Below the pieces are notes generated by a model. It had not been told where the DNA came from. It worked only from the letters and a program-made list of their open reading frames with translations, and searched no databases. Below, piece after piece: positions 1,404 to 63,134 of a stretch of 64,000 nucleotides of DNA; within the stretch, counting starts at the first letter, position 1, and every line of letters begins with the position of its first letter. The DNA comes from Clostridiales bacterium CCNA10. GTDB taxonomy: Bacteria > Bacillota > Clostridia > Oscillospirales > Oscillospiraceae. The stretch covers positions 1,674,001-1,738,000 of the forward strand of contig AP018533.1 in assembly GCA_003573975.1 (NCBI GenBank). Reading direction: 5' to 3'. The translations under genes and the position numbers were made by a program.

Positions 1404-1598
1404 GTTTACAAAAGCAGACAGCGCTCCATCAGGGTACCGCCCTGATGACAGTCGAAAGGCTGTTGACCCGGCGACCAGGGCCCGCCCCCTCCGGGCAGGG
1501 GGGCCCTTCGGCGGCCTTCCCTTTGGGCGTGGATGGACGGGAACCGGCTCCCTGGCCACGCTTACTGATGTCGGCCGCTACCTCTATCTTGCAAAAAC
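1404..1598 (-). ncRNA. Lysine riboswitch (L box) in the asd leader
   Basis: Read on the minus strand the leader contains the conserved L-box blocks in order: AGATAGAGGTAGCG near 1588, CATCAGTA soon after, then GGCCGCCGAAG (about 1505-1515) and a closing AGCGCTGTCT (about 1417-1427). The 5' and 3' ends pair as a P1 stem around 1584-1598 and 1404-1421. An intrinsic terminator lies between it and asd. Known members sense lysine and terminate transcription of lysine-pathway genes, which suits asd. Open reading frames across this stretch are spurious. Confidence 0.85.
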
Positions 1599-19032: not shown

Positions 19033-20205
19033 ATGACCAATGATGTGAAGATTTTTGCGAAGACCATCGAGCAGGAAGCGACGGAGCAGATCGAGAAGCT
19101 GTCCCGCCATCCCGTGAGTGACGGCTCCAAGGTACGGATCATGCCCGACGTTCACGCCGGCGCTGGGTGTACTATCGGAACGACGATGACCATTCACGAC
19201 CGCGTCTGCCCGAACCTCGTGGGCGTGGACATCGGCTGCGGTATGCTGGCCGTCAAGCTGGGGCGGGTGAGGCTCGACCTTGACGAGCTGGACAAGGCCA
19301 TCCGCTGGAATGTGCCGGCCGGTTTCTGTACTCACAACTACCCGAAGGAGTGGTTCGACCTGAGCGGCCTGAAATGCGTCGGCATCGACAACAGCCGTGC
19401 GCTCCTCAGCATCGGGACGCTCGGCGGTGGCAATCACTTCATCGAGGTTGACAAGGATAAGAGCGGCGGCCTCTGGCTGGTGATCCACACCGGCAGCCGA
19501 AAGCTCGGCCTTGAGGTGGCGAACTGGCATCAGCACAGAGCGATGGAGGCCATGACGAAGCCCACCAGCGAGGAAATCAGCCGTGTCGTCGCCGAGTACA
19601 AGGCTGCTGGCCGACAGAAGGAAATCGCCGGTGCGCTGGAAGAACTGAGAAAGCAGCACAGCGACTTCGGAGTACCCGACCTCGCGTACCTGACCGGCGA
19701 GCTGATGGATGACTACCTGAGCGACATGGAAATCATCCAGCGTTACGCGGAGGCCAACCGTCAGGCCATCGCAAAGGCCATCCTGAAAGCTATGCACATC
19801 GTCCCACAGGAGCAGTTTACGACCGTGCACAACTACATTGACCACGAGAGCATGATCCTGCGGAAAGGCGCCGTGTCTGCCAAGAAGGGCGAGCGCCTGA
19901 TTATTCCGATGAATATGCGCGACGGTTCTCTGGTCTGTGTCGGCAAGGGCAACGACGATTGGAACCAGTCGGCGCCGCATGGAGCTGGCCGCCTGATGTC
20001 CCGCAGCAAGGCCCGCGAGTCAATTTCTCTCGGAGCCTACCGAGAGACGATGCGGAACGTGCATAGCTCCTGTATCAGCTACGACACCATAGACGAGGCG
20101 CCGTTCGCCTACAAGGACATGAAGGAGATCATGGGCTGCATCGGCCCGACCTGCGACGTGCTGGAGATTATCAAGCCCATCTACAACTTCAAAGCATCGT
20201 CATAA
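19033..20205 (+). CDS. rtcB: RtcB RNA ligase
   Basis: 390 residues. RtcB motifs are present: MPDVHAGAGCTIGTT, VGVDIGCGM (metal-binding Asp and Cys), GGGNHFIEVD, HTGSR, and PHGAGRLMSR, which holds the histidine that is guanylylated. RtcB joins RNA ends with 2',3'-cyclic phosphate to 5'-OH ends, as produced when anticodon nucleases cut tRNA. In a phage with its own tRNA genes, repair of tRNA cut by host defence is a likely job, inferred from the reaction. Confidence 0.93.
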   Translation: MTNDVKIFAKTIEQEATEQIEKLSRHPVSDGSKVRIMPDVHAGAGCTIGTTMTIHDRVCPNLVGVDIGCGMLAVKLGRVRLDLDELDKAIRWNVPAGFCTHNYPKEWFDLSGLKCVGIDNSRALLSIGTLGGGNHFIEVDKDKSGGLWLVIHTGSRKLGLEVANWHQHRAMEAMTKPTSEEISRVVAEYKAAGRQKEIAGALEELRKQHSDFGVPDLAYLTGELMDDYLSDMEIIQRYAEANRQAIAKAILKAMHIVPQEQFTTVHNYIDHESMILRKGAVSAKKGERLIIPMNMRDGSLVCVGKGNDDWNQSAPHGAGRLMSRSKARESISLGAYRETMRNVHSSCISYDTIDEAPFAYKDMKEIMGCIGPTCDVLEIIKPIYNFKASS

Positions 20206-26723: not shown

Positions 26724-27893
26724 ATGAGCAAGATACTCTTCACTTCGGAATCGGTCACGGAAGGCCATCCCGATAAAGTGTGCGACCGCATCTCTGACGC
26801 AGTGCTCGACGAGGTCATGAAGCATGACCCGAATGGCCGTGTGGCCTGCGAGACCTGCTGCACGACCGGCATGGTGCTGGTCATGGGCGAGATCAGCACG
26901 GAGCATTACATCGACTTTGCCGGTATCGCCCGCGGCGTCCTGAAGGACATCGGCTATGACAGCCCCAAGGCGGGATTTGACGGCAACACCTGCGCGGTGA
27001 TGGTAGCTATCGACGAGCAGAGCCCCGACATCGCAATGGGAACCAACGATGGAGTCGGCGGAGCGGGGGATCAGGGAATGATGTTCGGCTACGCCTGTAA
27101 CGAGACACCGGATCTGATGCCCCTGCCTATCACGCTGGCGAATAAGATGGCATACCTGCTGATGAAGAAGAGAAAGGACGGCACGATCCCTCACATCCTC
27201 CCCGATGGAAAGACACAGGTGACGGTGGAGTATGACGAGGGGGGCAACCCGGTACGGGTTGACACCGTCGTCATCTCTACCCAGCATGAGGAGTGCGTCG
27301 CACCCGAGGATCTGGAGGAGCCTCTGAAGGAGCACGTCATCAAGCCCGTCCTCGACGAGCTGCTGACCTACCAGCCCAATATGGACGTTGACACCTACGC
27401 CCTGTTCATCAATCCCACGGGTCGCTTCGTCAAGGGCGGCCCTGCCGCAGACTCGGGCCTCACCGGGCGCAAGATCATCGTGGACACCTACGGCGGCTAT
27501 GCCGCGCACGGTGGCGGCGCCTTCTCCGGCAAAGACCCCACTAAGGTTGACCGCTCCGCAGCGTATGCAGCCCGCCACATTGCAAAGAACATCGTGGCCG
27601 CTGGCATCGCTGACAAGTGTCAGGTTCAGCTTGCCTACGCCATCGGTGTTGCGCATCCCGTGAGCATCCGCGTCGATACCTACGGCACCGGCAAGTACGC
27701 CGAGAATAAGATCTGCGACGCCGTCGAGGCCGTCTACGATCTGACCCCAAGAGGCATTATCAACTGGCTTGACCTGCGTAAGCCCGTCTACAAGAACACC
27801 TCCGCCTACGGCCACTTCGGCAACGTCATCGGCGAGGAGCGTACTTGGGAGAAGACGGACGCTGCAGAGAAGCTGCTCGAAGCCATCAAGTAA
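26724..27893 (+). CDS. metK: S-adenosylmethionine synthetase (phage-encoded)
   Basis: Makes SAM from ATP and methionine. The 389-residue length is normal. The active-site blocks are intact: [16 protein letters not shown] at the N-terminus, [31 protein letters not shown], the phosphate loop [16 protein letters not shown], and the C-terminal YGHFG. All expected catalytic residues visible in these motifs are kept, so it is likely active. A complete metK in a phage is unusual. It precedes a nucleosidase that would remove the by-product of methylation and a DNA methyltransferase-like gene. Confidence 0.96.
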
Positions 27894-28179: not shown

Positions 28180-28635
28180 ATGGCAATTATGACAGGTCGG
28201 TATAGCAACAAGGAACTCCGAAACGATGGGTATTATCCCGTCGGCATCAGCGTCGGCAAGCCCAGATTTTCAACTGGGTACGAGATCCGTGAACAGTGCT
28301 ACGCGCTGGCTCCGCGGTACGATATGCTGAAGCTGGGCTATGAGGAGTACAAGGCCGAGTATTTCAAGAAGCTGGATAAGATCGGCGTCGATAAGATTAT
28401 CGGCATCGTCCAGCGGCTTGACGCCAAGGCTCAGGAGGAGGACAAGAAGCTGGTTCTGCTCTGCTTTGAGGACATCCGTAAGCCTGAGAACTGGTGCCAC
28501 CGCACGTTGTTTGCGGAGTGGTGGCTGGCCCACACCGGCGAGGTCATCGAGGAGATGCCTGAGGCTGACGCTTTGAAGCAGCCTAAGGCGGCAAAACCGC
28601 CTGAAGAGAAAGTTGAGCAACTGAGCCTGCTGTAA
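28180..28635 (+). CDS. DUF488-like protein
   Basis: 151 residues. The C-terminal VLLCFEDIRKPENWCHRTLF followed by AEWWLAHTG is the hallmark of DUF488, a small alpha/beta family with conserved Cys and His-Arg. The N-terminal half has a YYPVGISVGKPRF segment. Function of the family is not established. The start at ATG 28180 follows CAGGAGG. A variety of phages carry it near DNA-modification genes. Confidence 0.7.
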   Translation: MAIMTGRYSNKELRNDGYYPVGISVGKPRFSTGYEIREQCYALAPRYDMLKLGYEEYKAEYFKKLDKIGVDKIIGIVQRLDAKAQEEDKKLVLLCFEDIRKPENWCHRTLFAEWWLAHTGEVIEEMPEADALKQPKAAKPPEEKVEQLSLL

Positions 28636-28650
28636 CCGGCAGGCCGGTGA

Positions 28651-28807
28651 TGTGCGGTGGCGGAATAGGTAGACGCAGCAAGGGTATGCGGCGCAGAAGG
28701 GCACAACAGAACGCAGACCTATTGGGGTTAAGTAGCTACCTCGGACGGGAAGAAAGCACGTTGTACGCTGCCTGCGCTATGCGGGGTGACAAATCCCCGC
28801 CCGCACA
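28651..28807 (+). ncRNA. 157-nt tRNA-Leu-like element with enlarged interior
   Basis: The ends TGTGCGG and CCGCACA form a 7-bp acceptor-like stem. A class-II type D arm (GCG..AATAGGTAGA..CGC) follows the 5' side and a GCGGGG/CCCCGC T-arm-like hairpin precedes the 3' side. In between, instead of an anticodon arm, about 100 nt can pair as GCGCAG (28691-28696) with CTGCGC (28772-28777) and ACAAC with GTTGT. No anticodon can be assigned and CCA is not encoded. It could be a degenerate tRNA-Leu, or a tRNA-like RNA with an extended arm. Confidence 0.45.
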
Positions 28808-28815
28808 TCAGATAC

Positions 28816-28889
28816 CCGGAACTGGTGAAAGAGCATCACGCCCTCTATCCTTGAGGGAGTTCCTACCTTGCAAGTAGGGTTCCGGTCCA
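28816..28889 (+). ncRNA. tRNA-Gly-like RNA 1 lacking tRNA hallmarks
   Basis: All four stems are perfect: acceptor CCGGAAC/GTTCCGG, D arm GTGA/TCAC, anticodon stem CCCTC/GAGGG, T stem CCTAC/GTAGG, then T73 and encoded CCA. The anticodon loop is TATCCTT (position 33 is A, 34-36 TCC), the D loop AAGAGCA has no GG, and the T loop is CTTGCAA, not TTCRANN. U73 with C35 and C36 are glycyl-tRNA synthetase identity features. A normal ribosomal role is doubtful. Confidence 0.75.
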
Positions 28890-28892
28890 TAT

Positions 28893-28969
28893 ACGGGCGA
28901 ATGTCCCAAGGTGGCGACACGGTCTCCAAAACCGCGTGTGGTGGGTTCGATTCCCAACCGTCCGTGCCA
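28893..28969 (+). tRNA. tRNA-Trp (anticodon CCA), slightly irregular
   Basis: Acceptor ACGGGCG/CGTCCGT (one G-U), discriminator G and encoded CCA. The D loop keeps GG, the anticodon loop is CTCCAAA as in tRNA-Trp, and the T loop is TTCGATT. Departures: an A-C pair at the top of the anticodon stem, one base short between the D and anticodon stems, and one bulged A in the T stem. Only 3 nt separate it from the tRNA-Gly-like RNA before it. Confidence 0.75.
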
Positions 28970-28994
28970 TAGGCCCCGACCATCGGGGCAACAT

Positions 28995-29067
28995 CCGGGA
29001 ATAGTGAAAGGTATCACGCTCGGCATCCTGTCGAGAGTTTCCGCCCCATAAGCGGATTCCCGGTCCA
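28995..29067 (+). ncRNA. tRNA-Gly-like RNA 2 lacking tRNA hallmarks
   Basis: Acceptor CCGGGAA/TTCCCGG, D arm GTGA/TCAC with loop AAGGTA, anticodon stem CTCGG/TCGAG with loop CATCCTG (A33, 34-36 TCC), T stem TCCGC/GCGGA with loop CCCATAA, then T73 and CCA. Arms can be laid over those of the other two, base for base, except for compensatory stem changes. A small hairpin (GCCCCGA/TCGGGGC, 28973-28989) separates it from tRNA-Trp. Confidence 0.75.
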
Positions 29068-29070
29068 TAT

Positions 29071-29144
29071 CCGGGCCTGGTGAAAGTGCATCATTCCTGC
29101 CTACCCGGCAGGCGTTCCAGCCTCGCAAGCTGGGGCCCGGTCCA
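29071..29144 (+). ncRNA. tRNA-Gly-like RNA 3 lacking tRNA hallmarks
   Basis: Acceptor CCGGGCC/GGCCCGG, D arm GTGA/TCAT with loop AAGTGCA, anticodon stem CCTGC/GCAGG with loop CTACCCG (here U33, 34-36 ACC), T stem CCAGC/GCTGG with loop CTCGCAA, then T73 and CCA. Three nt after RNA 2, and followed at 29151 by a strong terminator that ends the array. Confidence 0.75.
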
Positions 29145-29150
29145 GAATAC

Positions 29151-29185
29151 GAGAAAGGCAGTCGGAGAACCGGCTGCCTTTTCTC
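29151..29185 (+). terminator. Terminator of the tRNA-like array
   Basis: GAGAAAGGCAG pairs with CTGCCTTTTCTC (one bulged T) around a smaller TCGG/CCGG inner stem. Placed 6 nt after the last CCA. Confidence 0.8.
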
Positions 29186-29205: not shown

Positions 29206-29877
29206 ATGAGGAAGATCGGACTGATCGTAGCAGTCGAGGAAGAGGCCATGCGCCAGAAATACGGCGAAGGCTACGATTTGAACGACGGCTACGGCACAGT
29301 GCTTTATCAAACCGCCAAAAGCCAAGTCTACGCCCTGTATAGCGGCGCAGGTGAGATTTTCGCGGCCGCCGCAACACAATACCTTATCGACCGCTACGAA
29401 GTCGCTACGGTCCTTAATTACGGCGTAGTGGGAGGCTGCAGAGACGACCTGATGGCTGACGAGCCATGCCTCGTTGACTGCGTGGTGCATTGGCAGTACG
29501 ACCTATCCGACGTGGACGGTGTGCCTGTTGGTCGGTACACGGAGTACACAGACCGACGGCTCCCGACCAACGAGCGTCTCATGGAGGCAGCCAGCCGAGT
29601 GTTTCCGAACCTGCGTCATGTGTGCTGCGCCTCTGGCGATAAGTTCATGGGCAAGGCGGAGGAGAAGCTCTGGCTCAACAAAGAGTTCGGCGCGGATGTG
29701 TGCGACATGGAAGCAGCGGCGATCCTGCTGACCTGTGACCGCAACAGCGTCCCGTGTCTGATGATAAAGACGGTAGCCGACAGCGTTAGGGGTGGCGCTG
29801 CGGAATACTGGAATGAGAAGGGCAGGACAGCGATGACCTGTCTGGACATCGTCGATAAGCTGATCGACGAGATGTAA
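29206..29877 (+). CDS. MTA/SAH nucleosidase-like nucleoside phosphorylase family protein
   Basis: 223 residues of the PNP/UDP-phosphorylase fold. MRKIGLIVAVEEEAM is the typical start of MTA/SAH nucleosidases, YSGAGEIFAAAAT carries the glycine-rich phosphate/ribose site, VLNYGVVGGC the second core strand, CDMEAAAI the ribose-binding Met-Glu, and a DS near the purine site (TVADS) is kept. Such enzymes split adenine from S-adenosylhomocysteine or methylthioadenosine. Next to metK and a methyltransferase, removal of SAH is the most sensible role. Exact substrate is not proven. Confidence 0.85.
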   Translation: MRKIGLIVAVEEEAMRQKYGEGYDLNDGYGTVLYQTAKSQVYALYSGAGEIFAAAATQYLIDRYEVATVLNYGVVGGCRDDLMADEPCLVDCVVHWQYDLSDVDGVPVGRYTEYTDRRLPTNERLMEAASRVFPNLRHVCCASGDKFMGKAEEKLWLNKEFGADVCDMEAAAILLTCDRNSVPCLMIKTVADSVRGGAAEYWNEKGRTAMTCLDIVDKLIDEM

Positions 29878-29959: not shown

Positions 29960-31354
29960 ATGGCGTTTTTTATGGACCCCGGAGCGATGTTCCTCGGGTG
30001 CCTGAACGGTGTTGAGCAGAAGTTTTTGATTGAGCTCATTAAGACCGCTCGGCGTTCTGGGTACACGCGGTTCGTAGAGCCATGCGCCGGTACATTCGCT
30101 ATGGCGAATCTGGCAGTCCAGTCGGGGTTCAAGCCTGAGCAGATCGAAACCAGCGACGTGAACATGATGACCTCGGTGATGGGCTACGCCATCACGGGCC
30201 AGTCTCTCGAACCGCTGCAGATCCACGCGCAGGGCTTCTCCGATGAAGAGCTGTTAGACCCGGCCGTAGCTCTGTACGCGCAAATCTATCTGCGGACATC
30301 GAAGAGCGCAGGGAACGAGTATTTCCACAACATCCTGCGCGACCTGCACGACAGGCGTGAAGAGCACATCGAGAGCATACGCCGACAGCTTGAGGCCACG
30401 AAGAGCCTGCTCGGTGGTATGAGCTACCGCCCGCTGGATATGTGGGATCATCTCCGCGAGGTGAAGGACGACCCGCATACGATCATCGTGGCGAACCCGC
30501 CGACGTATTTCGCCGGCTATGAAAAGTTCTACGACACGCAGGGCAAGATGACTTGGAAAGAGCCACCCTACGGTATGTTCGACCCTGAGACCGGCCATCA
30601 GCAGCTCTACGACATGATGATGGACGCTCCCGCTCTGCTCCTGTGCTATCAGGAGAAACGGGCAGGTGAGGCCGTCGGCCACACCATCTTTGCCCGCTCT
30701 GGGACGCGCGCCGACCTGAACTCGTATATCACGACGAACAGGGAAGAGGAAGCGGTGGCCCTTGCCAAAGGGAAGAAAATCAAGCGCCCGCAGGAGGGCA
30801 AGCTGGAGCCTCTGAAATGCAGTATGCTCCCGCTCGACTATGAGATCACAGAGGAGAGCGACATCCGAATTATCCAGATCGCCGGCGCCAACGCGCAGTA
30901 TTACCGGATGCTCTGGACGCACAACTTCGTAGGCTCGCAGGCGACCTACAACCGCGCTGTCCTGATCGACGGCTATGTGGCCGCGGTCTTCGGCATCTCG
31001 AAGATGGCTGCGGACTCCATCTTTGTGTGGTACGTCATGAAGGCACCGCACAAGCTGTACCGCCTCGGCCGTCTCTGCTATATGCTGGCCCAGAACCAGA
31101 GCTTCGTGGACACGCTGCTCGACGACATCGACCAAGAGAAGGTCACGAAGATGCGGACAGCCATGCTCACGAAGTACGCCGAGAACAAAGAGGTTCGCGG
31201 CATCATGAAGCTGGTCAACCGGCAGGAGGACGCGAAGAACGGGTACAAGCTGACCTATGAGGCCGCCCTTGTGGCTGGCCGTGACGAGAAGGCTACGTTG
31301 GCCGAATGGCTGAGGAGGGAGAAACAATGGCAGCAGAAGAGAGCACAGCAATGA
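29960..31354 (+). CDS. DNA methyltransferase-like protein (NPP-type)
   Basis: 464 residues. FVEPCAGTFAMA is a SAM-binding motif I, and VANPPTYF is motif IV in the NPPY position of amino-methyltransferases, with tyrosine one place later than usual. TSDVNMM resembles motif II. A long C-terminal half (about 250-464) without known motifs may be the target-recognition domain. Adenine or cytosine N-methylation is expected; no restriction partner is present, so self-protection or epigenetic control is likely. It overlaps the ParB-domain gene. Confidence 0.75.
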   Translation: MAFFMDPGAMFLGCLNGVEQKFLIELIKTARRSGYTRFVEPCAGTFAMANLAVQSGFKPEQIETSDVNMMTSVMGYAITGQSLEPLQIHAQGFSDEELLDPAVALYAQIYLRTSKSAGNEYFHNILRDLHDRREEHIESIRRQLEATKSLLGGMSYRPLDMWDHLREVKDDPHTIIVANPPTYFAGYEKFYDTQGKMTWKEPPYGMFDPETGHQQLYDMMMDAPALLLCYQEKRAGEAVGHTIFARSGTRADLNSYITTNREEEAVALAKGKKIKRPQEGKLEPLKCSMLPLDYEITEESDIRIIQIAGANAQYYRMLWTHNFVGSQATYNRAVLIDGYVAAVFGISKMAADSIFVWYVMKAPHKLYRLGRLCYMLAQNQSFVDTLLDDIDQEKVTKMRTAMLTKYAENKEVRGIMKLVNRQEDAKNGYKLTYEAALVAGRDEKATLAEWLRREKQWQQKRAQQ

Positions 31355-32238
31355 GCTACGAGAAGATTTACGACATGGGCACCGGCCTGATTATCGCCAA
31401 AGTCCAGCTTGATAAGGTGCGGGAGCAGGACATCAACGCCCGCATCATGAGGAAGGAAATGCAGGATCAGCTCACCGCGAACATCAAGAACCGCGGCCAG
31501 CTTGAGAGCCTGCCCCTGCTGGTGGAGAAAGACGGCGTTCTGGAGATTATCTCCGGCCACCACCGCATCAAGAGCGCCCGCGCCGCCGGCATGAAGGAGA
31601 TTATCGCCATCATCGACGTGAGCGGCCTGTCCCGCTCCAAGATTGCATCGAAGCAGTTGGCCCACAACGCCATCAGCGGTTTCGATGACCCGTCCATCCT
31701 GCGCGAGATCTGCAAGATGCTCGACGACGTGGATGATATGCTGGAGAGCTTCATCGGCAAGGACATCATGGAGGAGCCTCTGGAGCAGTACGATAAGCTG
31801 CTGTCCCCGGCGGTGCATTTCGACTTCAAGAACATCACGTTTTCGTTCCTGCCGCATCAGGTGAAGGACATGGATGCGCTGGTGAAGAATCTTGAGTCCT
31901 CGGCACCTGAGATTATCGGTGTCGCGCCCTACGAGCAGTGCAAGCAGTTCATCGAGGCGCTGGCCCGCTACCAGAAGTTCTCCGACATCCGCAACGTCGG
32001 CGCCGCCATCCACTCCATGATTGAGAGCGTCACGGAGAAGATGGACGAGGTCGGCTTCAAGGACGACGAGGAGTGGACGTATCTGACGAAGATTTTCGGC
32101 AGCAACGCCATCCCTGCGGAGTCTGCAGCTACCATTACGAAGGCCATCAAGAAGGCCGAGAAGGACGGTGCCATCACGAGCAAGAACCGCTGGCAGTTGA
32201 TCGAAATGCTTGCCACCGAATATCTGGCAGGAAAGTGA
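31327..32238 (+). CDS. ParB-domain protein coupled to the methyltransferase
   Basis: 303 residues. The ParB/sulfiredoxin-like N-terminus is clear: LIIAKVQLDKVREQDINAR, IKNRGQLESLPLLVE and IISGHHRIKSARAAG. Phage proteins pairing a ParB-type domain with a DNA methyltransferase are frequent just before terminase genes, and some are nucleases or DNA-binding adaptors. The ATG at 31327 follows GGAGGGAG inside the methyltransferase gene, so the two are co-translated. No ParA partner is present, so plasmid-type partition is unlikely. Confidence 0.78.
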   Translation: MAAEESTAMSYEKIYDMGTGLIIAKVQLDKVREQDINARIMRKEMQDQLTANIKNRGQLESLPLLVEKDGVLEIISGHHRIKSARAAGMKEIIAIIDVSGLSRSKIASKQLAHNAISGFDDPSILREICKMLDDVDDMLESFIGKDIMEEPLEQYDKLLSPAVHFDFKNITFSFLPHQVKDMDALVKNLESSAPEIIGVAPYEQCKQFIEALARYQKFSDIRNVGAAIHSMIESVTEKMDEVGFKDDEEWTYLTKIFGSNAIPAESAATITKAIKKAEKDGAITSKNRWQLIEMLATEYLAGK

Positions 32239-32248
32239 GTGATGTGAT

Positions 32249-32725
32249 ATGCCGGCCCTCAGCAAGTACAATCCCGAATACCACGACGATTGGGCTTGGT
32301 CGCTGGCAATCAAGGGAGCCACGAACGACGAGATTGCCGAGGCTTTCGGCATCTCGACGCGCACCTTTATTCGCTGGAAGCAGGAGCATGAGAGCCTGAA
32401 CGACGCAGTCGAGCGAGGAAAGAACATCGCCGACTCTAAGGTCGAGAAGGCACTTTATCAAAGGGCTTTGGGCTACCAGATTACCGACACCGAGAAAACA
32501 ATCGACATGGATAAGGATGGCAACCCGAAGCCCGTCCGCATCAAGAACACGACGAAGAACATAGTGCCAGACACTATGGCAATTATGTATTGGCTGAACA
32601 ACCGCAAGCGTACCCAGTGGGCGCAGCGGCAGGAAGTCGCCCTCTCCGCCGGCGATGATTCCGAAGATGTTCTGATCTATCTCCCCGCAAACGGCAGGGA
32701 CGATGGCGACCAGCAAGAGTCCTGA
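32249..32725 (+). CDS. terS: Terminase small subunit
   Basis: 158 residues. A helix-turn-helix (NDEIAEAFGISTRTFIRWKQ) for packaging-site binding is followed by a helical region and a charged C-terminus with a PDTMAIMYWLNNR segment, typical of Firmicute phage small terminases. It overlaps the large subunit gene by 23 nt. Confidence 0.88.
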   Translation: MPALSKYNPEYHDDWAWSLAIKGATNDEIAEAFGISTRTFIRWKQEHESLNDAVERGKNIADSKVEKALYQRALGYQITDTEKTIDMDKDGNPKPVRIKNTTKNIVPDTMAIMYWLNNRKRTQWAQRQEVALSAGDDSEDVLIYLPANGRDDGDQQES

Positions 32726-34127
32726 GAGAAAAGTCCGTGTGCTGAAGCCGCAGTTCGGCCCGCAAGAGAAGTTTCTTGCGACCCCTGCGGACATCTGCAT
32801 CTACGGCGGAGCGGCCGGTGGCGGCAAGACCTACGGCCTGCTGCTGTCGGCATTGAGATACAAGAATGTCAAGGGCTTCGGCTGCACGATCTTCAGGAAG
32901 AACTACAAGCAGATTTTCGCCCAAGGCGGCCTGTGGGATGAAGCCCAGAAGATGTACCACGGTATCAACGGGGCACAGCGGAAAATCTCGGATGGCACGT
33001 GGTCGTTTCGGGATAAGGACGGCAACGAGGTTTCCAAGGTGTCCTTTGCGCACATCGAGCGTTCGGAGGAGCTGGACAACTGGCAGGGCGCTCAGATCTG
33101 CGAGATCGGCTTCGACGAGCTGACGCATTTCAGCGAGGAGATTTTCTTCTATATGCTGTCCCGTAACCGTTCGACCTGCGGCGTCAGGCCGTTCGTTCGA
33201 GCGACCTGCAACCCTGACGCCGATAGCTGGGTGGCGAAGTTCATCGCATGGTGGATCGACCAAGACACCGGCTATCCCATCCCTGAGCGGTCTGGCCTCA
33301 TTCGCTACATGATTCGGCGCGACGAGGTCGTTTACTGGGCGGACACCAGAGAGGAACTCTGGGAACGCTTCAATTTGACCACACCGGAAGAGAAGAACGA
33401 GCCGAAGTCGGTGACGTTCATCATGTCTTCCGTGTACGACAACCAAGAGCTGCTGCGTATCGACCCCGGCTACCTGTCCAACCTGAAGGCGCTGTCGGTC
33501 ATCCAGCGCGAGCGACTCCTCAAAGGCAACTGGAAGATCAGGGCCGCCGCCGGCCTGTTCTTCAAGAGAACGCAGCTTGGCGAGATCCTGACCATCATGC
33601 CGCAGGACGTCATCCAGTGGGTTCGCTGCTGGGACTTGGCGGCAACCGAGAAGACCGAGAACGGCGACCCGGCCTATACCGCTGGCGTCCTGATGGGCAA
33701 GCGGAAGAACGGCCGATACGTCATCGCGGACGTCATCAACAAGCAGATGAACGCCTCCGATGTGCGAAAGACGATAAAGCTGACTGCTCAGGCAGACCGT
33801 GCGGCGTACAAGCGCGTCCGCGTCCGCCTGCCGAAAGACCCCGGACAAGCCGGCAAAGAGCAGGCCGAGTCCTACATCAAGTTCCTGTCTGGCTTCGACG
33901 TTACGGCCATCGCTGAAAGTGGCAGCAAAGAGGCCAGAGCCGAGCCTATGGCCGCACAATGGCAGGCCGGCAACTTCGACATCATGTATGGCGAGTGGAA
34001 CGAGGCGTATCTTACGCAGCTTGAGAACTTCCCAGACGGAAAGTTCAAGGATATGGTCGATGCAAGCGCCAACGCATTTGCGGAGATCGAAACGAAGACG
34101 GCGTTCAACGTCGGCAACCTGATTTGA
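32703..34127 (+). CDS. terL: Terminase large subunit
   Basis: 474 residues. The ATPase domain has Walker A GGAAGGGKTYG and Walker B IGFDELTHF. The C-terminal RNase H-like nuclease has CWDLAATEK and AESGSKEARA around the metal site. It packages phage DNA into the prohead through the portal encoded next. The start codon ATG 32703 lies inside terS. Confidence 0.94.
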   Translation: MATSKSPERKVRVLKPQFGPQEKFLATPADICIYGGAAGGGKTYGLLLSALRYKNVKGFGCTIFRKNYKQIFAQGGLWDEAQKMYHGINGAQRKISDGTWSFRDKDGNEVSKVSFAHIERSEELDNWQGAQICEIGFDELTHFSEEIFFYMLSRNRSTCGVRPFVRATCNPDADSWVAKFIAWWIDQDTGYPIPERSGLIRYMIRRDEVVYWADTREELWERFNLTTPEEKNEPKSVTFIMSSVYDNQELLRIDPGYLSNLKALSVIQRERLLKGNWKIRAAAGLFFKRTQLGEILTIMPQDVIQWVRCWDLAATEKTENGDPAYTAGVLMGKRKNGRYVIADVINKQMNASDVRKTIKLTAQADRAAYKRVRVRLPKDPGQAGKEQAESYIKFLSGFDVTAIAESGSKEARAEPMAAQWQAGNFDIMYGEWNEAYLTQLENFPDGKFKDMVDASANAFAEIETKTAFNVGNLI

Positions 34128-34144: not shown

Positions 34145-37111
34145 ATGGACGACAGACGCAAAGACCAAGCCGAGCGCATCGTGAAGAGGTACGCCCACCT
34201 GATCGAGATGCAGACCGGCAAGGCCGTTCGCCCCTACCGAGCCGACGGCTACGTGAACATGATGAACAAGTACGGCACGAGCAAGGACACCACGGAAGGG
34301 TATCGGTTCCGTGCCGAGCCTGTGGTTCCCGATGAACTGCTCACCATGTACTACGAGGGCAACGGCCTGTTTGCGAAAATCATCGACACGCCCGCAGAGG
34401 AGGCCATCAAGCACGGCTTCACGCTGGAGAGCACCAAAGACCAGAAAATCGAGGACTTCTATACGGAGGCCCTCGACGAGCTGGACTGGGAAGAAACGGC
34501 CATGACCGCCATCCGCTGGGCGCGGCTCTTCGGAGGTTCCATCGCCGTGATGATGATTAACGACGGCCGCGGCATCGACGAGCCTCTGGACTGGCGCAAC
34601 ATCCGGTCGATTGACGATATTCGCGTCTATGACCGCTCGGTGATCCAGCCCGACTACCAGAGTATGTTCTCCTACGACCCGCGTGACCCGTTCCGCACCA
34701 GAGGCTCCCGCCTCGGTATGCCCGAGTTCTACCACGTGACGAGCCGCACCGGTTCGTTCACCGTTCACGACAGCCGGTGTCTGGTGTTTCAGAACGGCAT
34801 CTTGCCCGAGAACACGACCAATTCGATTTACCAGCTATGGGGCATCCCCGAGTATGTGCGAATCAACAGGGCCATCCGTGACGCGGAAGTGGCCCACGGC
34901 AGCGCAACGAAGCTGCTCGACCGCTCCGTTCAGGCGGTCTACAAGATGAAGGATCTGGCCGCAGAGCTTGCCACCGAAGAGGGCGAGGACAGAGTCTTGC
35001 GCCGTCTGCAGACGATTGACATGGCCCGCGGCCTGCTGAACAGCATTACCATTGACAGCGAAGGCGAGGACTACGACTTCAGGCAGTTCCAGTTTAGCGG
35101 CGTCTCCGACGTCATCGACTCGACCTGCAACTTCCTGTCGGCGCTGACCTCGATTCCGCAGACAATCCTTTTTGGCCGTTCACCGGCAGGCATGAACGCT
35201 ACCGGCGACGCTGATTTGGAAAACTGGTACAACTATCTGGAGCGCATCCAGAAGCGCATGGTGAAGAAGAACCTGCGCTATCTGCTGTCGGTCATTTTCC
35301 AAGCTGGCGTCCGTACCGGCGAGGTCGATGAAGTGCCGAAGATCAAGGTGGAGTTCAACCCCCTGTGGTCGCTCAGCGACACGGAACAGGCAGACCTCGA
35401 CCAGAAGCGGGCACAGACGCAGTTCACCAGAGCGCAGACCGCCCAACTCTACATCGACAAGCAGGTTATCGACCCGAGCGAGGTTCGCGCCAAGCTGGCC
35501 GACAGCGAGGAGTTCGACGTCGAGAATATGCTCGACGAATACGACGACGAGGATCTGTTCCCCGACGAGCCTGCAGAGGGCGGTCAGGTTTCCGGTGACG
35601 TTGGGCAGAGCATTTTCGAGCAGGGCCAGTTCGCTGACTATGCCGAGGGCACCAGCACCGAAGAGCACAAGAAAGACCCCGGCGGAGACGGTGAAGCTCC
35701 CGCCGCCGCACCTGCTGCGACCAAGTTGCCGCAGGACATGAGCGACGAGGAACGTCAACAGTCAGCCGCCAATGCCCCGCAAAATCGCGCTAAAGCCTCG
35801 GTACAGGATGTCCAGGGTGATGGGAATACATCTACACCCGAAGATATAAAAGCCTGTGTAGGCGTTCTGGTGGTCTCTCAGGGCAAGGTTCTGAGCGGAA
35901 CCAGAAAGACGGAGTTCGGCCACGGCCTGATTTGTGGCCCCGGCGGTCACATCAAGGAAGGCGAATCTCCGAAGCAGGCGGCGTTCCGTGAAGCAGAGGA
36001 AGAGTTCGGCATCAGCCCGAAAGAGCTGATCCCGCTCGGCCGAGGCCCTATGGAGCCTGACACCGGCATTCAGCCGTACATCTTCCTGTGTACTGCGTAC
36101 GAAGGCGAGCCGAATTGCGTGGACGGTGAAATGGCTGACCCGCAGTTCAGAACGCTGGAGGAAATCGAGCTGCTGACCCCGTCGCTGTTCCAGCCGTTTG
36201 CGGATGACGTGAAGCTCCTGAAAGCGGCGCTCCGAGGTGAACGCGACCCTTTTGAAGAGGATGGCGGACCGGGGAGTGGCAATTTTGGACACAAGGGACG
36301 CAAAGGTGAGATTGGCGGCTCGGAGGAACGCGACGGAAACACCTCCCCATATAACGGCGAAACCAGCCACGGACTCGAAAGAGGTGTTTACTCTGCAAAG
36401 AAATCAGAGTGGAGTAAGAATGCTGGACGCGAACTGAGTGACCGTGAAGTGCAAGAAATGGTCGATGCGACATCGGACTACACAAGGAACTATAAGGATG
36501 TCGTGGCGGCTTCTGCTGGTTACTCGGGTGTATATGCGACGCGTGGTTCACTGATGGACAGTGAAGAAAAGGCTACCGCCGAAAAGAACGCAGCAGCCAT
36601 TGAAAAGGCGATTTCACTCTCGGACAAGTACGCCGGTACGACCAAACGTGCGATGACGATGGACAAGGATACCTTTGACAAGTTCGTCGCAGAGGCGTCA
36701 GGAGGTAGCACGTTCGGACTCGGCCATCTGTCGAGCTGGTCTACTGGGGACGACGCGATAAAGAGAGTGTTCAGATCCAGAGATGGTGATGACCCTGATT
36801 CGTACAACGTTGTGCTCGAATGCAAGTCGAAGAGCGGCGTCTCCATCAAGGATGTGGCTGATGTTGACATGGATGAAGTCCTGTATTCCAAGAGGGCAAA
36901 ATTCAAGGTTGTTAATACTGACCCTGATTATTCCGTCGGGAAATATAAGGCCGTGAAACTTACGCTTGAGGAAGTCGACAGCAGAGGTGATTCCTCCAAT
37001 CTCGACGGTGGCCCCGGTTCTGGCAACTTCGGACACGAAGGAGTCCCTGGACAAGTGGGCGGCTCCACACCACCCCTGACGCCTACTGCCTCGAAGTTGT
37101 TTCAGAGGTAG
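34145..37111 (+). CDS. Portal protein fused to Nudix and ADP-ribosyltransferase-like domains
   Basis: 988 residues, about twice a normal portal. Residues 1-480 are a DUF1073-type portal (TPAEEAIKHGF, ARLFGGSIAVMM, SIPQTILFGRSPAGMN). A low-complexity linker follows. Residues about 570-690 are a Nudix hydrolase with an intact Nudix box (starts G600, REAEEEFGI at its end). Residues about 780-930 look like an R-S-E ADP-ribosyltransferase: R831 in TKRAMTMD, LSSWSTGDD near 865, and DEVLYSKRAKFKV near 909. Two near-identical GGPGSGNFGH...GGS segments (about 706 and 953) flank the transferase part. Both added domains bind nucleotides of the NAD type, so head-borne effectors delivered with DNA are possible. 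Confidence 0.85.
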   Translation: MDDRRKDQAERIVKRYAHLIEMQTGKAVRPYRADGYVNMMNKYGTSKDTTEGYRFRAEPVVPDELLTMYYEGNGLFAKIIDTPAEEAIKHGFTLESTKDQKIEDFYTEALDELDWEETAMTAIRWARLFGGSIAVMMINDGRGIDEPLDWRNIRSIDDIRVYDRSVIQPDYQSMFSYDPRDPFRTRGSRLGMPEFYHVTSRTGSFTVHDSRCLVFQNGILPENTTNSIYQLWGIPEYVRINRAIRDAEVAHGSATKLLDRSVQAVYKMKDLAAELATEEGEDRVLRRLQTIDMARGLLNSITIDSEGEDYDFRQFQFSGVSDVIDSTCNFLSALTSIPQTILFGRSPAGMNATGDADLENWYNYLERIQKRMVKKNLRYLLSVIFQAGVRTGEVDEVPKIKVEFNPLWSLSDTEQADLDQKRAQTQFTRAQTAQLYIDKQVIDPSEVRAKLADSEEFDVENMLDEYDDEDLFPDEPAEGGQVSGDVGQSIFEQGQFADYAEGTSTEEHKKDPGGDGEAPAAAPAATKLPQDMSDEERQQSAANAPQNRAKASVQDVQGDGNTSTPEDIKACVGVLVVSQGKVLSGTRKTEFGHGLICGPGGHIKEGESPKQAAFREAEEEFGISPKELIPLGRGPMEPDTGIQPYIFLCTAYEGEPNCVDGEMADPQFRTLEEIELLTPSLFQPFADDVKLLKAALRGERDPFEEDGGPGSGNFGHKGRKGEIGGSEERDGNTSPYNGETSHGLERGVYSAKKSEWSKNAGRELSDREVQEMVDATSDYTRNYKDVVAASAGYSGVYATRGSLMDSEEKATAEKNAAAIEKAISLSDKYAGTTKRAMTMDKDTFDKFVAEASGGSTFGLGHLSSWSTGDDAIKRVFRSRDGDDPDSYNVVLECKSKSGVSIKDVADVDMDEVLYSKRAKFKVVNTDPDYSVGKYKAVKLTLEEVDSRGDSSNLDGGPGSGNFGHEGVPGQVGGSTPPLTPTASKLFQR

Positions 37112-61520: not shown

Positions 61521-61928
61521 GGCGGAGGCATCCGCCTTGAGTTAGGGTATGACTCGCATCGGCCGCCAACTGGTGGCTCCGCTCCCCGAACACCAACAAC
61601 ACCAACAACGTGTGGAACGTCAACACCAATGGCAACTACAACAACAACAACGCATCCAACTCGAACGGCATCCGCCCCGCTCTGATGGAAAGTGAGATTA
61701 GTAATCCCTCCGATGGGACGAACACAGTACACCATCATCAAAGGGAGTCATATCCTGTCGCCCGTCTGTGCATGGATGGACGATAAACACATCACACCGA
61801 GGCTCGCCATCCCGGCTTGGATGCTGCGGCTGCCGGGGGCAAGACGACCGGTGTTAGGAGTGATGGCTGGTCTGGAGCTTGCCCTATACCCAGACCAGAG
61901 GAAGCAACAACAGCAAAGAAGCGAGTTT
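61521..61928 (+). ncRNA. DGR template RNA region (TR plus spacer)
   Basis: The non-coding stretch between the Avd-like gene and the reverse transcriptase. It holds a short hairpin GGCGGA/TCCGCC (61521-61536), the template repeat (61571-61684), a 180-nt spacer and a 9-bp hairpin CTGGTCTGG/CCAGACCAG (61867-61898). In DGRs the RNA that primes and templates reverse transcription spans TR and downstream spacer; ends here are approximate. Confidence 0.7.
61571..61684 (+). repeat. DGR template repeat (TR)
   Basis: 114 bases aligning with VR1 (63666-63779) and VR2 (15534-15647) without gaps. It is adenine-rich, with AAC/AAT codons where the variable repeats have other residues. The terminal CGCTCTG differs from CGCTTTG in both variable repeats, the expected IMH*/IMH difference that marks the donor. 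Confidence 0.92.
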
Positions 61929-63134
61929 ATGACCTATCAAGAGATGTGCAGCTTTGAAACGCTGTACGCAGCTTACTTGGAGGCCAGAAAGCGGAAACGG
62001 TCAAAGCCGGGAACCGCCCAGTACGAGGCGAATGTTCTGGCCTGTACCGAGAAGCTGTCAACGATCCTGAGCACCAAGACCTACGTTCCGAGCAGGTTTG
62101 AGGTGTTTTATGTCTATGAGCCGAAGAAGCGGCTCGTCCAAGCACCCGCGTTCGTGGACAAAGTCGTCCTCCACGCGGTCGTGGACAACATCCTGTATGA
62201 AGCCATCACGAAGAGCTTCATTCGGGACAATTTCGCCAGTCAGACCGGTAAGGGCACCAACGATGGTTTGATGCGGCTGAAGCAGCACATGGTCGATTAC
62301 TACCGGCGAGAGAAGCGCGGAACCGATGGGTGGATTCTCAAAGGAGACGTGCATCACTTCTTCGCCAGCATCGACCACGACAAGCTGAAACGCAAGCTGA
62401 AGGCGCTGCTCGATAAGCGTGGCGTAGACCCGCAGATCTATGACCTGCTGTGCGTCTACATCAATACGACCGACGGGCTGCCCCTCGGCTACCAGACCAG
62501 CCAGCTACTCGCCCTGATGTTTCTGGACGAGTTCGACCACCTGATGAAAGAGAAATACCGCCTGAAGTATTACGGGCGATACATGGATGACTTCTACGTC
62601 ATCCTCTCAGACAAACAGCGGTTGAAGGAGATCCTGAAGGACATTCGGGCGCTGATGGACGGCTGGGGTTTGGAGCTGAACCAGAAGACTGGCATCTTTC
62701 CGCTGAGGAACGGCATCGACTTCCTCGGCTTCCATTCGTACATTACCGAAAGCGGCGGCATCATCCAGAAACTTCGACGGGACAGCATCCAGCGAATCCG
62801 TGCGAAGGTGAAGTTCTGGGAGGAAGCCTACAAGCGCGGTGAGGTTACGAAGGACGCTATCCTCCAGAGTTTCGGAGCGTGGGACGCACACGCGGCATAC
62901 GGCGATACGCACGAGCTGCGGGCGAAATACGCAAAGAAGGTGGAGGCTATCATCGGTGAGCCGGTGGAGATCCACCGGAAACTCAACGGAAACCGTGCGG
63001 TACGCGATAAGCGAAGGCTTTGCCAATGCCGCAACCTCTACAAGAAACAGCATCAGAACAGGGAGACGGAGAAATCCGGCTCCTTTTCTTATGCCCAACG
63101 CCCCACGGACGTTCCTCCGTGGGCTGACTCTTAA
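61929..63134 (+). CDS. DGR reverse transcriptase
   Basis: 401 residues. Catalytic YMDD at 218-221 and the paired aspartate in GDVHHFFASID (D140). LGYQTSQ at 186-192 has the SQ form of the conserved motif that marks DGR enzymes (other RT groups have SP). LELNQKTGIFPLRNGIDFLG follows. It copies TR RNA with adenine-specific errors and the cDNA replaces VR. The ATG at 61929 is preferred, since earlier in-frame ATGs lie in the TR spacer; its own ribosome site is weak. The 9-bp hairpin just upstream may gate translation. Confidence 0.95.
   Translation: MTYQEMCSFETLYAAYLEARKRKRSKPGTAQYEANVLACTEKLSTILSTKTYVPSRFEVFYVYEPKKRLVQAPAFVDKVVLHAVVDNILYEAITKSFIRDNFASQTGKGTNDGLMRLKQHMVDYYRREKRGTDGWILKGDVHHFFASIDHDKLKRKLKALLDKRGVDPQIYDLLCVYINTTDGLPLGYQTSQLLALMFLDEFDHLMKEKYRLKYYGRYMDDFYVILSDKQRLKEILKDIRALMDGWGLELNQKTGIFPLRNGIDFLGFHSYITESGGIIQKLRRDSIQRIRAKVKFWEEAYKRGEVTKDAILQSFGAWDAHAAYGDTHELRAKYAKKVEAIIGEPVEIHRKLNGNRAVRDKRRLCQCRNLYKKQHQNRETEKSGSFSYAQRPTDVPPWADS
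63102..63123 (+). repeat. 8-bp hairpin in the end of the reverse transcriptase gene
   Basis: CCCACGGA (63102-63109) and TCCGTGGG (63116-63123) form a perfect stem around CGTTCC. The unit CCACGGACGTTCC also occurs in element A. It ends 20 nt before the target's ribosome site, so it may be a terminator-like or regulatory hairpin between RT and target. Confidence 0.65.

Follow-up and report, generated by a model that had tools for sequence, protein, structure and literature searches.

Comparative analysis of a 64-kb window (the whole stretch of DNA studied here, positions 1674001-1738000 of a 3.56-Mb bacterial chromosome) points to a partnership between tRNA genes and an enzyme gene in a prophage and its relatives, in which the identity of the tRNA switches in step with the enzyme. 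Specifically, the window holds a contractile-tail prophage with terminase, portal, protease, sheath, tape measure, and baseplate genes, and directly ahead of its terminase genes lies a tRNA array flanked by a DUF488-like gene (28180-28635) and a gene encoding a fusion of a Dam-like and a GNAT-like domain (29960-31354). Three members of this array, at 28816-28889 (element 1), 28995-29067 (element 2), and 29071-29144 (element 3) on the plus strand, are tRNA-Gly-like. We propose that they are phage-encoded tRNAs that would receive glycine from the host synthetase yet stay out of translation, and that the GNAT half of the Dam-like/GNAT enzyme would pass the glycyl group on to phage DNA before packaging, the Dam-like half making adenine the probable target base. 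The DUF488-like and ParB_N proteins would be further parts of this module, and sister phages would use a tRNA-Lys or tRNA-Arg version, so that the amino acid on DNA would differ by enzyme clade. We put the probability that the tRNAs in this position (the tRNA slot) donate an amino acid to phage DNA through the Dam-like/GNAT enzyme at roughly 0.55. That they serve the Dam/GNAT module rather than translation appears quite probable, and the full scheme of tRNA-coupled DNA modification, with dedicated Gly, Lys, or Arg tRNAs charged by the host, an enzyme recognizing the C1-G72/C2-G71 acceptor end, and an amino acid set by the tRNA-enzyme pair, has about an even chance of being right.

The three elements were recovered by a tRNA-shape scanner (7/4/5/5-bp stems, 7-nt anticodon and T loops, CCA), which gave exactly three matches in the window, all perfect cloverleafs on the plus strand, and none on either strand of 20 random sequences of the window's dinucleotide make-up. 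This bears out the first-pass annotation, made from the window's letters, which had placed three tandem RNAs with perfect stems and encoded CCA at these positions. Neither ARAGORN nor Rfam at its cut-offs reported any of them, ARAGORN reporting just the neighboring tRNA-Trp. The anticodon loops of elements 1, 2, and 3 read TATCCTT, CATCCTG, and CTACCCG, giving anticodons UCC, UCC, and ACC, with A, A, and U at position 33 and U73 in all three; the glycine identity marks and the loss of U33 in two copies thus stand as first described. The D-loops are AAGAGCA, AAGGTA, and AAGTGCA and the T-loops CTTGCAA, CCCATAA, and CTCGCAA. The earlier statement that all three lack G18G19 went too far, as the 6-nt D-loop of element 2 has a GG that can be G18G19, and that on T54T55C56 holds in part: no element has the full triplet, but C56 is kept in element 2 and T55 C56 in element 3. 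Relative to an elongator tRNA-Gly, then, the elements have the cloverleaf with CCA, an NCC anticodon, and U73, while the full 7-nt TTCRA T-loop is present in 0/3, U33 in 1/3, and the elongator G1-C72 pair in none, with 5' CC in all three.

The shape of these elements is under selection, because their stems covary. In a set of 17 distinct elements (the three from the window and 14 from other contigs), 99.4% of stem cells pair and 14 of the 21 pairs show compensating changes on both sides; none of 500 shuffles was as good, and sliding the stem partners destroyed the signal. Parts of the acceptor and D stems were set in advance by the pattern that collected the 14 contig elements. The anticodon and T stems were left free, and all 10 of their pairs change on both sides, making up 10 of the 14 covarying pairs. 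Covariation in homologues had been set beforehand as the check on which a selected shape could fall, and the stems do covary across the set. Random decay of normal tRNA genes, or chance, is ruled out by the covariation, the conservation, and the scanner control. A kissing contact between D-loop and T-loop (GC/GC vs GU/AU) rests on a single change and is not claimed. As to the DNA patterns themselves, the first, wide one gave 72 viral stretches, of which the scanner confirmed L063 alone; the second gave 73, only some of them real by the later pattern; and the third, with both ends fixed, gave 17 tRNA-shaped stretches with one mispair each in L118 and L181. A further tRNA-shaped match in the host genome (L087, 1283-1359; T-loop ATCGTTA) lies near a host tRNA and may be a register effect.

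Relatives were gathered with the enzyme protein, not the RNA, as query against viral contigs, phage and plasmid records, and genomes, and the locus set joined these matches with the window and loci also fetched by the RNA pattern. The resulting 145 loci formed 70 clusters at 98% identity, which the enzyme tree divides into a main clade of 54 and a distant clade of 16 (fragments too short for the tree included; the short clusters L119, L190, and L318 were put in the main clade by sequence). A same-strand tRNA lies within 1.25 kb upstream of the enzyme gene in 52/54 main-clade clusters (51 counted plus L190, whose tRNA is identical to that of L194 and had been dropped as a duplicate). The two misses are L178, which has only 99 nt of upstream sequence, and L202, with a tRNA 1.9 kb upstream; in the Microbacterium phage ValentiniPuff (L198), the tRNA sits at the opposite end of the record, which would place it 100 nt ahead of gene 1 were the two ends joined. 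Outside the slot, the same loci contain almost no tRNAs. ARAGORN found 35 within the 53,976 nt of slot sequence and 7 in the other 451,383 nt, where a single array in L182 supplies six; the scanner found 39 in the slot and 0 in the 949,815 strand-bases searched outside it. No tRNA was found in L183-L186, which have related terminases and no Dam/GNAT match. Slots carry one to three copies, and three slot stretches also carry tRNA-Met or tRNA-Ser. ARAGORN finds a slot tRNA in the deposited records of the Faecalibacterium phage FP_Brigit (MG711465.1) and of ValentiniPuff (MH825712.1) that is missing from the annotated stretches examined of both; in FP_Brigit it is a tRNA-Lys. The enzyme was present in 1/391 bacterial genomes of the class (the source genome itself) and 2/400 of the family (the source and G595/L320, which has three Gly elements); phage and plasmid records gave 3 and 4 matches. 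With the terminase large subunit as bait, genomes yielded seven loci, two of them (L187 and L189) with the enzyme.

The identity of the slot tRNA follows the enzyme tree. By cluster, the slots are Gly in 17, Lys in 24, and Arg in 11, with 30 identities named by ARAGORN, 15 by the scanner, and seven by eye (Arg L263, L311, and L198; Lys L240 and L229; Gly L231 and L249; the parse of L249 is ambiguous and L229 is unparsed). In the main clade, 10 tree rows with Arg enzymes group together, and so do the Gly enzymes (15 rows plus the unlabelled L178; SH-aLRT 100), which are nested within the Lys enzymes. The 55 rows that carry a label require four changes of identity; when "none" is counted as an additional state, there are eight, against a shuffled mean of 35.1, and 0/200 shuffles were as low, a contrast to which near-copies contribute.

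Across the three identities, the slot tRNAs have kept some features and lost or loosened others. An acceptor end of C1-G72 and C2-G71 (5' CC) is found in 55/57 slot tRNAs over all three identities, 21/22 of the Gly type among them, and in 2/50 distinct host tRNAs (taken from 30 of 95 host places), both tRNA-Pro. Being common to the three identities, this end is where a shared enzyme would be expected to make contact. Anticodons are NCC in 21/22 Gly and CUU or UUU in 23/23 parsed Lys tRNAs, and the discriminator is U in 22/22 Gly, A in 22/23 Lys, and mixed U and A in Arg. U33 is kept in 13/22 Gly, 19/23 Lys, and 4/11 Arg tRNAs, the full 7-nt TTCRA T-loop in 1/22, 3/23, and 9/11, and the D-loop GG in 3/22, 9/23, and 9/11, respectively; 5-nt T-loops occur, and the anticodon loop is shortened to 6 nt in 3/11 Arg tRNAs. 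The slot tRNAs retain the anticodon read by the synthetase and often dispense with features used by the ribosome, least so in the Arg group.

The strongest competing explanation, which we nonetheless consider unlikely, is that these are ordinary, divergent phage tRNAs that aid translation of phage genes and are held beside the late genes by synteny. Their anticodons do read codons, the array itself includes a normal tRNA-Trp, most Arg and some Lys slot tRNAs are nearly canonical, and the occasional tRNA-Met or tRNA-Ser in the slot would fit as well. Yet such tRNAs would not be expected to have their place predicted by the Dam-like/GNAT gene across phages that differ in their other genes, nor to be dominated beside the enzyme by Gly, Lys, and Arg, each tied to an enzyme clade, and 6-nt anticodon loops, lost U33, 5-nt T-loops, and C1-G72 would all be poor for the ribosome.

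By predicted fold, the enzyme itself appears to be of a DNA-modifying type. Its N-terminal half has DNA adenine methyltransferases as its best fold matches (PF22555 in the window), and motif IV reads NPPTY in the main clade, Dam motif IV being of the type [DN]PP[YFW]. The GNAT half (PF22559) is predicted to match GNATs, the phage Mu protein Mom among them. The usual CoA motif was found at the expected alignment columns in 0/60 enzymes; 3/60 have a match, put down to chance, in another part of the C-terminal half. This scoring was made without known GNATs as a positive control. Fem and L/F transferase are not among the fold matches listed, which does not rule them out, and no Fem-type family appeared among the window proteins scanned, which represent part of its genes. 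Enzyme columns that differ between the Gly and Lys clades include 357 (W/M), 359 (V/G), 374 (Y/T), and 402 (M/Q; E in 9/9 Arg enzymes), which the secondary structure places in the GNAT half, on one helix and two strands, and which are compatible with a smaller pocket for glycine; other columns, some in the Dam half, also differ.

The module around the enzyme is likewise conserved. A ParB_N gene follows that of the enzyme in 41/41 main and 15/15 distant loci with enough sequence, and the DUF488-like gene is present in 41/45 main and 10/15 distant loci, its four main-clade misses all being Arg-type. Together, the comparison shows a selected tRNA shape, a conserved module, co-segregation of identity and enzyme, a shared acceptor end, and the predicted folds; transcription, host charging, release from translation, use as a donor, and DNA as the acceptor, with its base and bond, are what we infer from these.

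A second competing explanation, somewhat less likely than ordinary translation, is that the enzyme acts on tRNA rather than DNA, so that the tRNA becomes a signal, a toxin, or a resistant form, either through acylation of its charged form by the GNAT half, in the manner of TacT, or through methylation by the Dam-like half. The DNA adenine methyltransferase fold of the N-terminal half, the lack of the CoA motif at its usual place, and the grouping of the enzyme gene with ParB_N and terminase genes all argue against it. We regard it as improbable that the elements protect against anticodon nucleases of the host, as decoys or as substitute tRNAs, or that they titrate glycyl-tRNA synthetase; the decoy and titrator readings had been raised in the first-pass annotation. 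The prophage does encode RtcB, an RNA-repair ligase, and the loops could be cleaved though the tRNA need not work in translation. But neither a decoy nor a titrator predicts that tRNA identity follows one neighboring enzyme, so both are disfavored; the link to that enzyme, the Gly/Lys/Arg switch with its clade, and the shared acceptor end would be left unexplained. RtcB was found in 0/45 main-clade loci, which is of little weight, since the flanks stop short of its place in the window. Least credible is the view that the elements act as a DNA or RNA structure in packaging or in the control of late genes, like pac repeats ahead of the terminase genes, their tRNA form being inherited but unused. 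The position upstream of the terminase genes and the three direct repeats of the window would suit it. But slots hold anywhere from one to three copies, the tRNA form is conserved together with the discriminator and the anticodon, and no tRNA was found in L183-L186, which have related terminases and no Dam/GNAT match.

Several observations weigh against the transfer of amino acids from slot tRNAs to DNA. First, the fold match to Mom is not specific, as Mom tied with ordinary acetyltransferases, and the absence of the CoA motif was scored on sequence without a positive control. Second, identity switches are few, leaving the residue switches without statistical weight. Third, the D and T loops of the Arg slot tRNAs are canonical in 9/11 each, making translation possible for this group. 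Fourth, L202 pairs a Lys-clade enzyme with a tRNA whose 6-nt anticodon loop reads UCU (Arg), or is a damaged CUU, and is the sole conflict between tRNA and enzyme. Fifth, the link is weak in the distant clade, where a tRNA-Gly lies less than 400 nt upstream in only three of the 16 clusters (L273, L275, and L277); it lies about 2.5 kb upstream in the Peribacillus phage-plasmids L200 and L201, 4.4 kb upstream in L264, and elsewhere on the record in L278, and was not seen for the remaining nine (five on 5-10-kb records, including L266, whose record was not searched). The distant-clade motif IV is, moreover, FPPTY rather than NPPTY. Finally, passages in PMC9976931 indicate that G1-C72 counts for glycylation by Escherichia coli and Thermus glycyl-tRNA synthetases, so that with C1-G72 instead, the elements may be charged poorly or only with the help of a phage factor.

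Set among known systems, one close likeness to the proposed one is the adenine modification of DNA by the GNAT-fold Mom of phage Mu. Mom is a single-domain protein that is not known to have an adjoining tRNA, and its donor is, to our knowledge, unsettled; here, the GNAT domain shares one protein with a Dam-like domain, and its gene is linked to that of a tRNA. Passages in the literature describe an acyl-CoA donor such as glycyl-CoA for Mom, not a tRNA (PMC7824862), in contrast to the tRNA proposed here, and this too counts against our proposal. Mom may work likewise, using host Gly-tRNA. The first-pass annotation had drawn on a different likeness, the non-proteinogenic tRNA-Gly of staphylococci, which has altered D and T loops and leaves translation to serve FemXAB in building pentaglycine bridges. 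Its suggestion of a non-translational glycyl donor is favored by the comparative evidence, but for a purpose other than cell-wall synthesis, as the acceptor there is peptidoglycan, whereas the slot tRNAs neighbor a DNA-type enzyme and also come in Lys and Arg versions. TacT and AtaT toxins are GNAT-type aminoacyl-tRNA acetyltransferases that use acetyl-CoA. They are described, in PMC9976931, as recognizing charged tRNA-Gly by U73 and G71; in contrast, the present enzyme lacks the CoA motif at its usual place, carries a Dam-like domain in addition, and is encoded next to the terminase genes of a phage. In Pseudomonas phages, N-alpha-glycinylthymidine likewise places glycine on phage DNA, although from free glycine and activated thymidine, with no need for a tRNA. 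L/F transferase, MprF, and PEARL ligases, several with GNAT-like folds, share the use of charged tRNA as a non-ribosomal donor and differ in acceptor; we know of no aminoacyl-tRNA-dependent transferase that acts on DNA bases, nor of any use of aminoacyl-tRNA as a donor for DNA chemistry. The literature, judged by titles and abstract openings, gave no link of tRNA with the Dam-like/GNAT family or with DNA modification, and related gene-set predictions may exist in work outside that search. The Dam/GNAT/DUF488/ParB gene set may be predicted in Iyer et al. 2013 on DNA-modification systems, in Burroughs and Aravind 2023, whose treatment of the rhodanese-phosphatase superfamily probably covers DUF488, or in Karambelkar et al. 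2020 on Mom.

The remaining genes of the region, all on the plus strand, lie around the array in close order. The DUF488-like gene (phrog_2450; a weak Pfam DUF488-N3a match, below cut-off) is the upstream border of the slot. The tRNA-Trp(CCA), found by ARAGORN at 28893-28969 between elements 1 and 2, has an ordinary T-loop and is also present in the relative L179/L115. Downstream of the array is a putative terminator-like hairpin with a T-rich tail (29154-29185, by eye). The ParB_N-domain gene (31306-32238; Pfam match just under the curated cut-off), which adjoins the enzyme gene in relatives, is followed by an HTH gene (32249-32725) in the position of the terminase small subunit, as which the FP_Brigit gene at the equivalent position is annotated (a likeness by position), and then by the terminase large subunit gene (32703-34127). 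On either side of the array lie an S-adenosylmethionine (SAM) synthetase gene (26724-27893) and, between the array and the enzyme gene, a PNP_UDP_1 or MTA/SAH-nucleosidase-like gene (29206-29877); SAM supply and by-product clearance by these neighbors would fit a busy SAM-using enzyme. The synthetase was found in at least 8/45 main-clade relatives with at least 1.5 kb of upstream sequence, a lower bound because the gene sits about 3 kb upstream, and the nucleosidase-like match in 2/45 only, in neither of which is it known to occupy this position.

Beside the array is also a tRNA-Leu-like RNA (28648-28812) that is kept in three phages (in L177 from about 5106; in L320 on the minus strand at about 4243-4128). 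Its acceptor ends pair, its D-arm is of the Leu type, and its T-arm has the loop TGACAAAT or TGGAAAT, with a long stretch replacing the anticodon arm and predicted energies of -63 and -75 kcal/mol in two of the three; it could be an intron-bearing or tmRNA-like RNA. Elsewhere in the window are the phage-encoded RtcB-type RNA ligase (19033-20205), with a possible role in RNA repair; a portal-like protein (34145-37111) with one region matching nudix hydrolase families; a reverse transcriptase gene toward the tail-gene end of the prophage (61692-63134), whose best NCBIfam scores, below cut-offs, are to group II maturases and Drt3a; and a lysine riboswitch (1411-1594, minus strand), probably in host chromosome.

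The pairing of a tRNA for Gly, Lys, or Arg with a DNA-modifying-type enzyme suggests that these phages may hang amino acids on their DNA. If so, aminoacyl-tRNA would become a donor for DNA chemistry, and the choice would extend to three amino acids; the positive charge of two of them could shield the DNA from nucleases or ease its packing. It would also explain a class of phage tRNAs that makes little sense for translation, provide a tool for writing amino acids on DNA, and allow the question of the Mom donor to be tested directly. Whether or not the chemistry holds, that a tRNA gene is consistently paired with one enzyme family, its identity switching in step, is a clear and testable comparative fact about these phages.
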